DNA from: Ignavibacteria bacterium
Lineage (GTDB): Bacteria; Bacteroidota; Ignavibacteria; UBA10030
Length of the DNA stretch: 32,893 nucleotides
Assembly: GCA_016873755.1 (NCBI GenBank)
Contig: VGWB01000017.1
Span: 1 to 32,893 of the forward strand
Reading direction: 5' to 3'
Position numbers and translations under genes: made by a program. Each line of letters begins with the position of its first letter. Within the stretch, counting starts at the first letter, position 1. Below, one piece after another: positions 8,720 to 15,300 of the stretch. The notes beneath the pieces were generated by a model. The model was not told where the DNA came from. It was given only the letters and a program-made list of their open reading frames with translations, and searched no databases.

Positions 8720-8792
8720 GCACCCATGGCTCAATTGGTAGAGCAACTGACTCTTAATCAGTGGGTTCCAGGTTCGAGTCCTGGTGGGTGCA
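8720..8792 (+). tRNA. tRNA-Lys (anticodon CTT)
   Basis: A complete cloverleaf can be drawn: acceptor GCACCCA with TGGGTGC, D stem GCTC/GAGC, anticodon stem ACTGA/TCAGT with loop CTCTTAA (anticodon CTT), and T stem CCAGG/CCTGG with loop TTCGAGT. The discriminator is A and CCA is not encoded. It lies 17 bases after secG and is followed at once by a strong terminator. A 12-base copy of its 3' end recurs at 8912-8923. Confidence 0.96.
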
Positions 8793-8793
8793 C

Positions 8794-8835: not shown

Positions 8836-9157
8836 GAGTATCAATGGAGGGTGAAGTTGTCCTGTCGGAGTCCAGCGAAGCGGGACGTAGACCCCGCCGC
8901 TGTTAGGCGGGGGTGGGTGCACACCTATGAGTTCCCGACAAAGAGTGTCGGGATCCGCAGAACAACAGACGAGTTAGCCAACAGGGCTGACTCGCATCAT
9001 TTTGGGACCTGCTGACAGGATAAGTCAGCTGCCCGTGTTCAGTTCCTTCCCCATTTCCCGATATCTTCGGTATCAGAACCTCTCATCTCAGATCGTCCAA
9101 TTGGTGGCATCAAAGCCGGTGACAATCGTAGGGAAAGGAGCTCATCGGAAGAGCCGA
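8836..9157. other. Hairpin-rich non-coding stretch downstream of tRNA-Lys
   Basis: No credible gene is seen here. Several hairpins follow one another: a GTCC/GGAC stem around 8872-8886, CCCCGCC/GGCGGGG (8892-8898 with 8906-8912), a CCCGACA/TGTCGGG pair near 8934-8952, GAGTTAGCC with GGGCTGACTC near 8972-8995, GCTGAC/GTCAGC near 9011-9029, and GATA/TATC near 9060-9073. The stretch carries a copy of the tRNA-Lys tail (8912-8923). It does not match the signatures I know for tmRNA, RNase P RNA, SRP RNA or common riboswitches. It could be an unrecognised structured RNA or a decayed tRNA-linked repeat. Confidence 0.4.
8892..8923 (+). repeat. GC hairpin abutting a 12-base copy of the tRNA-Lys 3' end
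   Basis: The hairpin CCCCGCC (8892-8898), loop of 7, GGCGGGG (8906-8912) runs directly into GGTGGGTGCACA (8912-8923), an exact copy of the last 10 bases of tRNA-Lys plus two flanking bases (8783-8794). The outer stem is the same as that of the hairpin in the tail of tRNA-Leu (12251-12284). Confidence 0.6.
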
Positions 9158-12146: not shown

Positions 12147-12233
12147 GCCGAAGTGGCGGAATTGGTAGACGCGCTGGACTCAAAATCCAGTACGGCTCAA
12201 CACCGTGTGAGAGTTCGAGTCTCTCCTTCGGCA
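12147..12233 (+). tRNA. tRNA-Leu (anticodon CAA)
   Basis: Acceptor GCCGAAG pairs with CTTCGGC, the anticodon stem CTGGA/TCCAG holds loop CTCAAAA (anticodon CAA), a long variable arm typical of class II tRNAs follows, and the T stem GAGAG/CTCTC encloses TTCGAGT. The discriminator is A; CCA is not encoded. Its 3' half is copied immediately downstream (12235-12303). Confidence 0.96.
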
Positions 12234-12234
12234 C

Positions 12235-12303
12235 GTGTGAGAGTCCCCCCCCCCGCCCGACTGCCGTCGGGCAGGCGGGCGGGGAGTCTCTCCCTCGGTA
12301 CCA
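12235..12303 (+). repeat. Partial copy of the tRNA-Leu 3' half split by a GC hairpin
   Basis: GTGTGAGAGT (12235-12244) repeats 12205-12214 exactly, 30 bases downstream. The segment 12285-12302 repeats 12218-12234 apart from a few changes (CTCTCCCTCGGTACC against CTCTCCTTCGGCAC). Between them, where the tRNA has TCG of the T loop, sits a 40-base GC block with a hairpin (12251-12284): nine outer pairs CCCCGCCCG/CGGGCGGGG, an A-G mismatch, five pairs CTGCC/GGCAG and loop GTCG. A run of ten C (12245-12254) leads into it. Confidence 0.8.
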
Positions 12304-12382
12304 TTTGAAACCCGCCTCTGCGGTCTCATACCTTAGAAACGGAGGGTGTTGATGCTTCAAGGATACTAGTTTGGTAAATTGA

Positions 12383-15300
12383 ATGCTGCACGTATCCGTC
12401 AGAACACCCTTGCGTTTCCGTTCGCTCATAGCTCTCACGGTTGTCCTTTCACTTCAGCTGCCCGCGCAGCAGGCTCAGCTTCCCAGCCACAGCCCGTCGC
12501 GCAAATCGGCCCTGTTCCAACTGACGGCCTACGACACTCTGTACAAGCTTCCCCACGGGTTCATCCTGCCGAGCAGCGAGCTGGTTCTTCTTGATTCCAC
12601 AGAGGCGTTGCTGCGCGACAAGGACTATCAGGTTCAATACCGGGATGGAACACTGGTTCTCACTCCGTCGCTGCGTAGCAGGCTCGCGACAGACACACTT
12701 CACCACCTCATGTCGGTCTCGTACTATCCTTTGCCTCTCGGGCTCAGGCGTGAATATACCCTGCGCGAAGTCATTGCTCGAAAAGATTCCCAAGGTGTTG
12801 AGCGCCGGTTCGTGACTCCTTCCCCGCGACCGTTTTCCATTGATGACGTTATCGGTCCGGGTTTGCAGAAAAGTGGGACAATATTCCGCGGGTTCACTGT
12901 CGGCTCGAATCGGGACATGAGTCTCAACTCTGGTTTTCGGATGCAATTGTCCGGCATAATTGCCTCGGACATGAACCTTGTTGCAGCGCTTACCGACGAG
13001 AACTCGCCCATTCAGCCGGAGGGGACAACCACAACCCTGCAAGAGCTCGACAAGATCTTCGTGGAGCTGAGTGGATCGACGTACGCCGTGACGCTGGGCG
13101 ATTTCAACCTTCAACGCACGCAGAAACAGGGGGGCGAATTCGGGGGACTGCTTCGAAAGCTCCAGGGGGCGACGGGCTCCTTGAGATCCAAGAATCTGCT
13201 GGATGCGCAAACGGTGGGATCATTCTCGCTGACAGGTGCCACCGCGCGCGGGAAGTTCGCCACAAACCAGTTCCAGGGGATTGAAGGGAGCCAAGGCCCG
13301 TACCGGCTCTCCGGGCGGGAGGGGTCGGGTCGGCCGGTGATCATTGCCGGCACTGAGCGGGTGTATGTCAACGGTGAGGTAATGACGCGCGGTGAGACAC
13401 AGGACTATACGATCGACTACGCAAGCGGTGAGATTTTTTTCTCGCCACGCAGACTCATCACGAACGCTTCCCGCATCACCGTTGACTTTGAATATTCTGA
13501 TAGAAACTTCACACGCAATCTGGTCGGCGCGAGTGCAGACGGCTCGGCGCTGGGAGGTCGGATTCGGTTCAGCGCGATGCTTTTCCAGGAAGCCGATGAC
13601 CCCGACGCGCCCATCGAATTCACGTTCGACGATGCAACCCGCTCGTTGCTGAAGGAGAGCGGAACGGATCGACTGAGAGCTTCGCTCCCGGGTGAGCGCT
13701 ACGTCGGGCGAGATTCCTTGACTGGTGCGCCGAAAGGCCAATACGTTCGTCGTGACACGACGATCGGCGGTAGGCAGTTAACGGTCTTCGTCTTTGCCCC
13801 CGGAGATCCACAAGCCGCGTATGCGGTGACGTTTTCGTACGTCGACCGGGTTCCATCCGATTCGGCCGGTTACGTGCGGTCAGCAGTCGGGCGGTTTCAA
13901 TTCGCCGGAATCGGAAACGGCAACTACATGCCCGTGCAATTCATTCCGATCCCCGAGCTCCACAGGTTGTTCAGCGGGGCAGCGAGCGCAGACGTTATCT
14001 CGGACCTTGATCTTTCATTTGAGTATGCCCTGAGCACATTCGATCGCAACCGGCTCTCCACCCGCGACGATGACGATCAGCGAGGATCTGCCGTCAAGTT
14101 CTCTGCACAATACAACCCGAAACGGATTGCTATTGGCAATACGAACCTTGGCGAGCTGGATGCCAAGGTGTCGGGGCGCTATGTCCAGCGCCAATTCCTC
14201 CCTCTCGATCGAATTGACGAGATCGAGTTCAAGCGGAAGTGGGATCTTTCTGTTGCATCCAGGGCTGATGAGCTCATCCAGGAGGCCTCATTGACGTATC
14301 GTCCCCTCGCGGCGCTAAGCCTCGGCGGCAGCTATGGATTGATGGAGAGAACCGGGGGCTTCCGTTCTCGGCGGAAGATGCTTCAATCATCGCTCACGGA
14401 CTCCTCGCTTCCACGGGGGATTTACGAGATCGAGCATATTCAGAGCGCCAATGATGAGACCAGCGATGAATCGGAATGGCTTCGTCAGCGCGGGACTCTC
14501 GAATTCGACGTCTGGAGGCTGAGGCCCGGAATTCGGGTGGAAATGGAACAGCGGGAGCAACATCCGATGAACGGAGACTCTCTCTTCAGGGGTAGCTTCC
14601 GGCTCGTCGAGGTCTCTCCGCGGCTTGCGTTTGAGCCGGGCGGACCTCTTTCTGCGACGGCAGAGGCGCAGATCCGGACAGAAGACAGTGCTTCAGTTGG
14701 GAACCTGCGGCGGGCGTCGCGCTCGTTCACTCAGATCTACTCATGGTGGCTCCGGGACTGGCATTCTCTTTCCAGTACGTTATCCCTCAGCATCCGCAAA
14801 ACGCGATTCACGGATGAGTTCAGGACCCGGGGGAACGTGGACGTGAACTCGACTTTACTCCGTTTTCAGTCCCGGTATGCTCCTGGACGGAGGGCACTCG
14901 ACCTCGATGTCTTGTATGAGTTCTCCAACGAACGCTCTGCTCAACTCGAGCGTGTGTTCATCCGGGCGCCGAAGGGCACGGGCAACTACAAGTACCTGGG
15001 AGACCTCAACGGCAATACTATCGCCGATGAAGCGGAGTTCGAGCAGACTCGATTTGACGGCGACTATGTCGTTTTCTACCTCCCGGGAGACGAGCTTGTG
15101 CCGGTGGTCGATCTGAAGGCGGGATTCCGGGCTCGGTTTCGGCCGTCAACGCTCGTGCCCAAGCCGTCGTCCGTCCTCGAGCACCTCCTTGCAAGTTTGT
15201 CCACCGAAACCGTTGGACGAATCGACGAGAGAAGCACGGAATCCGAGTCGCGCCAGATCTACCTCCTCAATTTCGCTCGCTTCCAGAATCCGGCAACTAC

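Follow-up and report, generated by a model that had tools for sequence, protein, structure and literature searches.

A hairpin-split partial copy of tRNA-Leu(CAA) in an Ignavibacteria genome as a probable remnant of GIY-YIG elements dedicated to single tRNA genes

Several described systems share features with the locus analyzed here. Phage T6 encodes beside its tRNAs a GIY-YIG homing nuclease, SegB, that cuts inside tRNA genes at the motif RAWTSGAAC (PMC13096335); its activity causes the tRNA locus to undergo segmental amplification (PMC2988022, PMC13096335). Fungal mobile ORFs, such as those at atp6 of Allomyces macrogynus and in the atp6, atp9, cox2, and nad3 gene hybrids of Glomus, consist of an intron-less endonuclease ORF in an essential gene, together with a replacement end for that gene, and leave the native end displaced downstream (PMC3630166). 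Mitochondrial double-hairpin elements are short single or double hairpins dispersed in both genes and spacers (PMC2800124). Partial 3' copies of tRNAs are also a normal result of integration by mobile elements, which leaves an attR fragment downstream of an intact gene (PMC9897764).

The stretch of DNA analyzed here (the window) is 32,893 nt long and corresponds to contig 17 of an Ignavibacteria genome, G000, a metagenome-assembled genome (MAG) of 3.97 Mb in 376 contigs. In it, an intact tRNA-Leu(CAA) gene is followed directly by a partial copy of its own 3' end that is split by a hairpin (Table 1). With a probability of roughly 0.65, we interpret this feature as a nuclease-less scar, or a minimal unit, of selfish elements that are each dedicated to one tRNA gene. 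Judging from the sequences of relatives, the full element appears to be a co-oriented GIY-YIG endonuclease ORF of ~80 to 130 aa, flanked on one side by an intact tRNA and on the other by a displaced, partial copy of it. This arrangement was not found in the literature searched, although absence there is no proof of novelty.

Table 1. Positions of the tRNA-Leu(CAA) gene, its split copy, and the adjacent conserved gene in the window
Feature	Position	Strand	Evidence and remarks
Intact tRNA-Leu(CAA) gene	12147..12234	+	ARAGORN; Rfam RF00005, 61.9 bits; nt 88 is the first base past the discriminator
Final 30 nt of the tRNA gene (nt 59-88), recurring immediately downstream	12205..12234	+	Repeat search
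Displaced copy, first block	12235..12244	+	Repeat search; no mismatch to tRNA nt 59-68; covers the 3' strand of the variable stem, the 5' strand of the T stem, and the first base of the T loop
Hairpin insert, 39 nt, at the T-loop position (break 68/71)	12245..12283	.	Arms 12251-12265 / 12270-12284
Displaced copy, second block	12284..12301	+	Matches tRNA nt 71-88 at 16/18 positions; covers the end of the T loop and the 3' strands of the T stem and the acceptor stem
Conserved gene, 1193 aa	12383..15964	+	No Pfam match; marks the orthologous locus

The split tRNA-Leu(CAA) tail at this locus is real. As an earlier sequence-only reading of this DNA had stated, the 10-base segment GTGTGAGAGT (tRNA nt 59 to 68) has an exact second occurrence 30 bases past position 12205. 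The next segment, GAGTCTCTCCTTCGGCAC (tRNA nt 71 to 88, positions 12217 to 12234), recurs with 2 mismatches as GAGTCTCTCCCTCGGTAC; the same reading had rightly called this repeat nearly exact and had misplaced it at 12285 to 12302, although the start of the second block at 12284 is itself ambiguous by one G. A CCA-like ACCA follows the second block, extending to 12304, and tRNA nt 69 and 70 (the TC of TTC) are absent from the copy at the break. The hairpin block reported at the T loop is also present, with 39 rather than 40 nt and with 15-nt arms at 93% complementarity; it is GC-rich and includes a run of ten C. The split copy appeared in 0 of 5,000 first-order shuffles of the flank, and any two-block copy of the tRNA appeared in 0 of 2,000 flank shuffles, in agreement with the earlier judgment that a chance origin was very unlikely. 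Folded as single-stranded DNA, the whole unit had a z of −4.6 versus shuffles. The ten-C run in the insert and the fragmentation of this 376-contig MAG could point to an assembly or sequencing artifact at a poly-C hairpin, an explanation to which we give almost no credence: 2 bases distinguish the copy from the tRNA, and the same architecture recurs at dozens of loci across 32 family genomes, and also in closed genomes such as G172 and G227. For the general pattern an artifact is excluded by tandem units, including three in closed G172.

The window contains a possible second instance at tRNA-Lys(CTT) (8720 to 8793 and 8893 to 8924), in which the last 11 nt of the tRNA, GGTGGGTGCAC, recur ~120 bp downstream, directly after the hairpin CCCCGCCGCTGTTAGGCGGGG. 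This match is short and not conclusive. The leader of the 1193-aa gene (12336 to 12402 in the window, and also at L018, L020, L032, and L031) carries a repeated arrangement, GATGTTGATGC..AAGGATAC..GTATCC..ACATCC, which occurs in several genera and may be a conserved regulatory hairpin.

Partial copies of a tRNA next to that same tRNA extend well beyond tRNA-Leu(CAA). With a self-copy defined as a partial copy within 600 bp of the tRNA scoring at least 30 bits, 10 of 38 tRNAs examined in G000 (26%) had one, compared to 0.08% of mismatched tRNA/flank pairs. The values for G015 were 11 of 23 tRNAs and 0.66% of mismatched pairs. Upstream copies are 5' parts and downstream copies are 3' parts, and palindromes interrupt them at loops. 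For example, in G000 three identical 84-bp units stand behind tRNA-Thr(cgt) and three identical 105-bp units behind tRNA-Asn; tRNA-Pro has two 151-bp units downstream, and there are single copies at Ala, Phe, Cys, Asp, and Pro. Most G000 examples break exactly at TTC^GA of the T loop (break positions in this genome were Ala 56/57, Thr 55/56, Asn 55/56, Phe 56/57, Pro 58/59, and Met 57/58), others break at D-loop and anticodon positions, and some positions are common to different genera (Leu(CAA) 69/70, Asp 51-60, and Pro 31/32). The inserts in the copies are hairpins, 60 of 88 of which fold better than all 30 of their shuffles. An exact pattern for the split tRNA-Leu T arm had 0 matches when searched in the family, because breaks and sequences vary. 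The sequence-only reading had proposed looking in related genomes for tRNAs with a palindrome-bearing partial self-copy, and many such instances were found. In the 16S-23S spacer of G000 (L065, contig C83), split tRNA-Ala tails lie behind tRNA-Ile and tRNA-Ala; they are of two kinds, with different T stems.

The sequence conservation of these copies bears on the possibility that they are functional RNAs under selection, acting as tRNA-like decoys, as an RNA antitoxin for the nuclease, or as processing or termination structures. Second blocks often match the tRNA perfectly (100%) over 17 to 19 nt, the inserts fold stably, and near-identical units stand in tandem (84 bp three times at Thr, 105 bp three times at Asn, and 151 bp twice at Pro). 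Recent amplification also predicts identical tandem copies, however, and the copies decay, carrying diverse inserts at several loops. Most relatives have no tRNA-Leu copy at the locus orthologous to that of the window. Known GIY-YIG enzymes have DNA as their substrate. We regard selection for an RNA function as very unlikely.

The partial copies are linked to small nuclease genes, a connection that the sequence-only reading had suggested checking. Loci were chosen by PF01541 score alone, which gave 90 small GIY-YIG loci in the family, and matches above the curated cutoff were present in short ORFs of both the relatives and G000. A tRNA lay within 500 bp at 37 of the 90 family loci, compared to any tRNA in 3 of 140 random 2.6-kb pieces of G000, and 45 of the 90 had neither a tRNA nor a tRNA fragment nearby. 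The tRNA and the nuclease had the same orientation in every pair (52 of 52), with the nuclease typically located between the intact tRNA and a partial copy. When the nuclease was downstream, a copy was found beyond it in 26 of 34 cases, 24 of which reached the tRNA 3' end; when it was upstream, a copy was found beyond it in 16 of 18 cases, 14 of which started at the tRNA 5' end. Tandem units of nuclease plus copy were present at L137, L165, and L173, and closed genome G172 has three near-identical GIY units at tRNA-Pro, each with a 5' copy of tRNA-Pro. In G000, the tRNA-Ser(gga) locus (L242) has a nuclease and a 5' copy that a double hairpin interrupts at TTC^GA. In the wider phylum, for which the best GIY-YIG match per genome was taken, 8 of 29 newly fetched loci had a tRNA, again with partial copies.

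Each GIY-YIG clade also appears to be faithful to a single tRNA isotype, even in different genera. In a tree built from 105 GIY-YIG domains, the isotype of the neighboring tRNA changes 12 times, close to the minimum of 9 for 10 isotypes, while shuffled isotype labels gave a mean of 34 changes and a minimum of 28. Because the alignment has few columns and the tree many weak forks, we rely on this shuffle test and not on single branches. Nucleases at tRNA-Leu(CAA) form one group with a support of 92 that spans three families (G006, G008, G015, two members of family f6, and one of f2), and one further Leu(CAA) nuclease, from G023, falls outside this main group. The side of the tRNA on which the nuclease lies gave no signal of inheritance on the same tree, with 14 changes versus 15 in shuffles.

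At the tRNA-Leu(CAA) locus itself, different states can be compared at one orthologous site. The distance from the tRNA to the 1193-aa gene is 30 to 97 nt in element-free relatives (142 in G002), 150 in the window, and 429 (G006) or 685 (G015) where a GIY-YIG unit is present. In genus g9, the empty sites of G024 and G043 consist of the tRNA and then a terminator, and the occupied sites of G008 and G041 consist of an intact tRNA, a nuclease ORF, a displaced tRNA 3' half, and the same terminator. The displaced segment of G008 (L023; tRNA nt 44 to 87 plus terminator) could be aligned, at 93%, to the 3' half of the tRNA and the terminator in G024, an empty site. In G041 the T loop of the displaced copy is intact, whereas G042, with the same element, has clean hairpin insertions, with no target duplication, at two places of its displaced copy: in the variable arm and, as a 30-nt double hairpin, at TTC^GA. 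It follows from this pair that displacement of the copy came before the hairpin. Displaced and intact tRNA parts are near-identical over 18 to 44 nt, which is too short for phylogenetic placement. In one genus, the tRNA-Leu(CAA) genes of occupied G040 (L038) and empty G030 (L033) differ by a single T-loop base after TTC, with TTCAAG in the nuclease carrier and TTCGAG in G030; this is a single case.

Occupied and empty sites differ by ~450 bp, with the GIY-YIG ORF as the only gene within. This difference is difficult to reconcile with reading the tail as the attR relic of a phage or ICE that integrated by means of a tyrosine recombinase. Such integration does produce partial 3' tRNA copies, typically running from the T arm to the 3' end, but integrase was found in 0 of 18 window proteins scanned, upstream 5' copies are as regular as downstream 3' copies, and some units stand in tandem, with one nuclease clade for each tRNA. 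The attR interpretation, which we consider highly improbable, was rejected, as no integrase or island lies between the intact and the partial tRNA.

These comparisons suggest a life cycle for tRNA-dedicated elements. The nuclease would first cut its own tRNA gene in an element-free chromosome, and recombination with an element-bearing copy would then bring in the nuclease and a replacement tRNA part, a step for which the arrangement is seen and the process conjectured. A functional tRNA would be kept, and the native 3' (or 5') end would be pushed outward with its native flank. Free of selection as a tRNA, the displaced copy would gain GC-rich hairpins at loops, in the T loop by clean insertion exactly between TTC and GA, as seen in G041 versus G042, and such a hairpin may remove the nuclease site. 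Loss of the nuclease gene would finally leave the split tail behind, as in the window. No GIY-YIG ORF is left inside the window, so a former nuclease at this locus is inferred from relatives; by that comparison, the locus probably once held, or derives from, a nuclease unit. The GIY-YIG elements themselves are presumed to be active as nucleases and capable of homing, and they seem to behave as homing elements that displace the end of a gene. Two points count against this interpretation: the intact tRNA keeps the T-loop sequence, which leaves self-protection unexplained, and the displaced copy in the window could have come from a simple 30-nt tandem duplication.

The sequence-only reading had offered either the footprint of an element that recognizes tRNA T arms and leaves a hairpin or the insertion of a hairpin into a tRNA fragment, and both are partly supported as successive steps. 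The association of partial copies with small GIY-YIG genes fits a footprint. Recognition of T arms alone was not supported, because breaks differ by isotype (T loop, D loop, and anticodon region) and one common T-loop target is therefore not the rule. Insertion into a tRNA fragment agrees with the intact T loop of the G041 copy and the insert in that of G042, as a later step. That the element itself leaves the hairpin was likewise not supported, as the same hairpin types were found away from tRNAs.

The palindrome type found in the window insert is dispersed in G002, G003, G009, G012, G014, G015, G017, and G028. A count of exact hairpins over 433 kb of its own genome showed only a small excess over shuffles, so the window hairpin is not a frequent repeat there. 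Double-hairpin units are dispersed as well, with 31 in G000, 34 in G015, and 0 for a reversed-pattern control, and 15 of 51 (arms of at least 5) lie in loops of other inverted repeats or terminators, where the null gave a mean of 6 and a maximum of 12. The left flank of dispersed palindromes is often TTC or GTT and is not constant. Because the same kind occurs outside tRNA copies, the hairpins need not be tied to the nuclease. In G015 (L245 and L246, contigs C9 and C12), the loop of a 15-bp, near-perfect inverted repeat (AGATGACCGTCACCT / AGGTGACGGTCATCT) is the exact site of the 30-nt double hairpin, which gives nested palindromes.

An alternative built on these hairpins is that tRNA ends underwent ordinary tandem duplication and that the copies were entered by a REP/MITE-like palindrome that prefers hairpin loops and depends for its movement on a Y1 (RAYT-like) transposase, with the GIY-YIG genes as passengers. 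The dispersal of double-hairpin units and the occurrence of several of them in loops of unrelated inverted repeats and terminators agree with this mechanism, as does the G042 insertion, which is clean and lacks a target duplication, as in Y1 transposition. Several Y1_Tnp proteins are encoded in G000, and they are also present in G015; the hairpins may travel through a Y1-type enzyme or may instead form at breaks. However, the match between GIY-YIG clade and isotype, the strict co-orientation, and the fixed 5'/3' geometry are left unexplained, several unrelated palindrome sequences occupy the same break positions, and G042, which carries the fresh insertion, has only weak Y1_Tnp matches. We judge this alternative unlikely.

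Elements dedicated to single tRNA genes can be set against the systems described above. Like phage T4/T6 SegB, they have a small free-standing GIY-YIG nuclease beside tRNA genes in the same orientation, and like SegB-type elements they have occupied (G008, G041, and G042) and empty (G024 and G043) alleles at one orthologous site. Unlike SegB, they lie in bacterial chromosomes, their nucleases are predictions known from sequence, and each nuclease is flanked by partial tRNA copies split by hairpins; SegB shows no isotype preference by neighborhood, whereas here there is one nuclease clade per tRNA isotype. In our reading, the reverse complement of RAWTSGAAC, GTTCSAWTY, would correspond to the T-loop sequence, where the interruption of the copies is most precise. 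A tblastn search of phages with one nuclease gave weak matches only, none of them named SegB. As with the Allomyces and Glomus mobile ORFs, the gene is made whole and the native end is displaced with its native flank (G008 versus G024). Those fungal hosts are mitochondrial protein genes and their nucleases mostly LAGLIDADG, in contrast to the bacterial tRNA genes here, and the present elements are set apart by displacement of 5' ends in addition to 3' ends, by tandem units, and by the hairpins within displaced ends. The hairpins resemble double-hairpin elements and REP/RAYT palindromes in being short, dispersed, and single or double, and differ from them in recurring at fixed loop positions of displaced tRNA copies. 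Finally, the 3' copies resemble attR fragments as partial tRNA 3' copies downstream of an intact gene, but the only gene of the unit is a GIY-YIG ORF of ~300 bp, and 5' copies occur upstream as well.

At slightly better than even odds, we would extend this interpretation to a large class of bacterial GIY-YIG homing nucleases, in lineages each dedicated to one tRNA isotype, that invade by supplying a replacement part, displace the native end, and leave hairpin-armored scars. Such a class would account for the palindrome-bearing partial tRNA copies that litter these genomes without any integrase, and it suggests that, in bacterial chromosomes, very small homing nucleases specific for a tRNA reside at essential tRNA genes. 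GIY-YIG clades that each follow one isotype would offer a ready panel for studying the origin of target specificity in such a small enzyme. At one locus the empty, occupied, hairpin-split, and nuclease-less stages all occur, and the life cycle is therefore directly testable. For annotators, these loci are a warning that tRNA pseudogenes may be of non-integrase origin.

The small GIY-YIG domain proteins are free-standing and without an intron, with the exception of L123 (G011, contig C141), where a group I intron (1002 to 1274; Rfam, 81 bits) lies ~200 bp upstream of the GIY-YIG domain. In NCBIfam naming, the nucleases gave only a sub-threshold match to group I intron endonuclease, and the sole Rfam match at GIY loci without a tRNA was one group I intron; rRNA and other RNAs were absent. 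Small GIY-YIG loci without a tRNA include L135, L150, and L159, and L135 consists of tandem identical genes. At L123, tRNA-like matches lie nearby, and this locus is possibly an intron-encoded relative of the free-standing elements.
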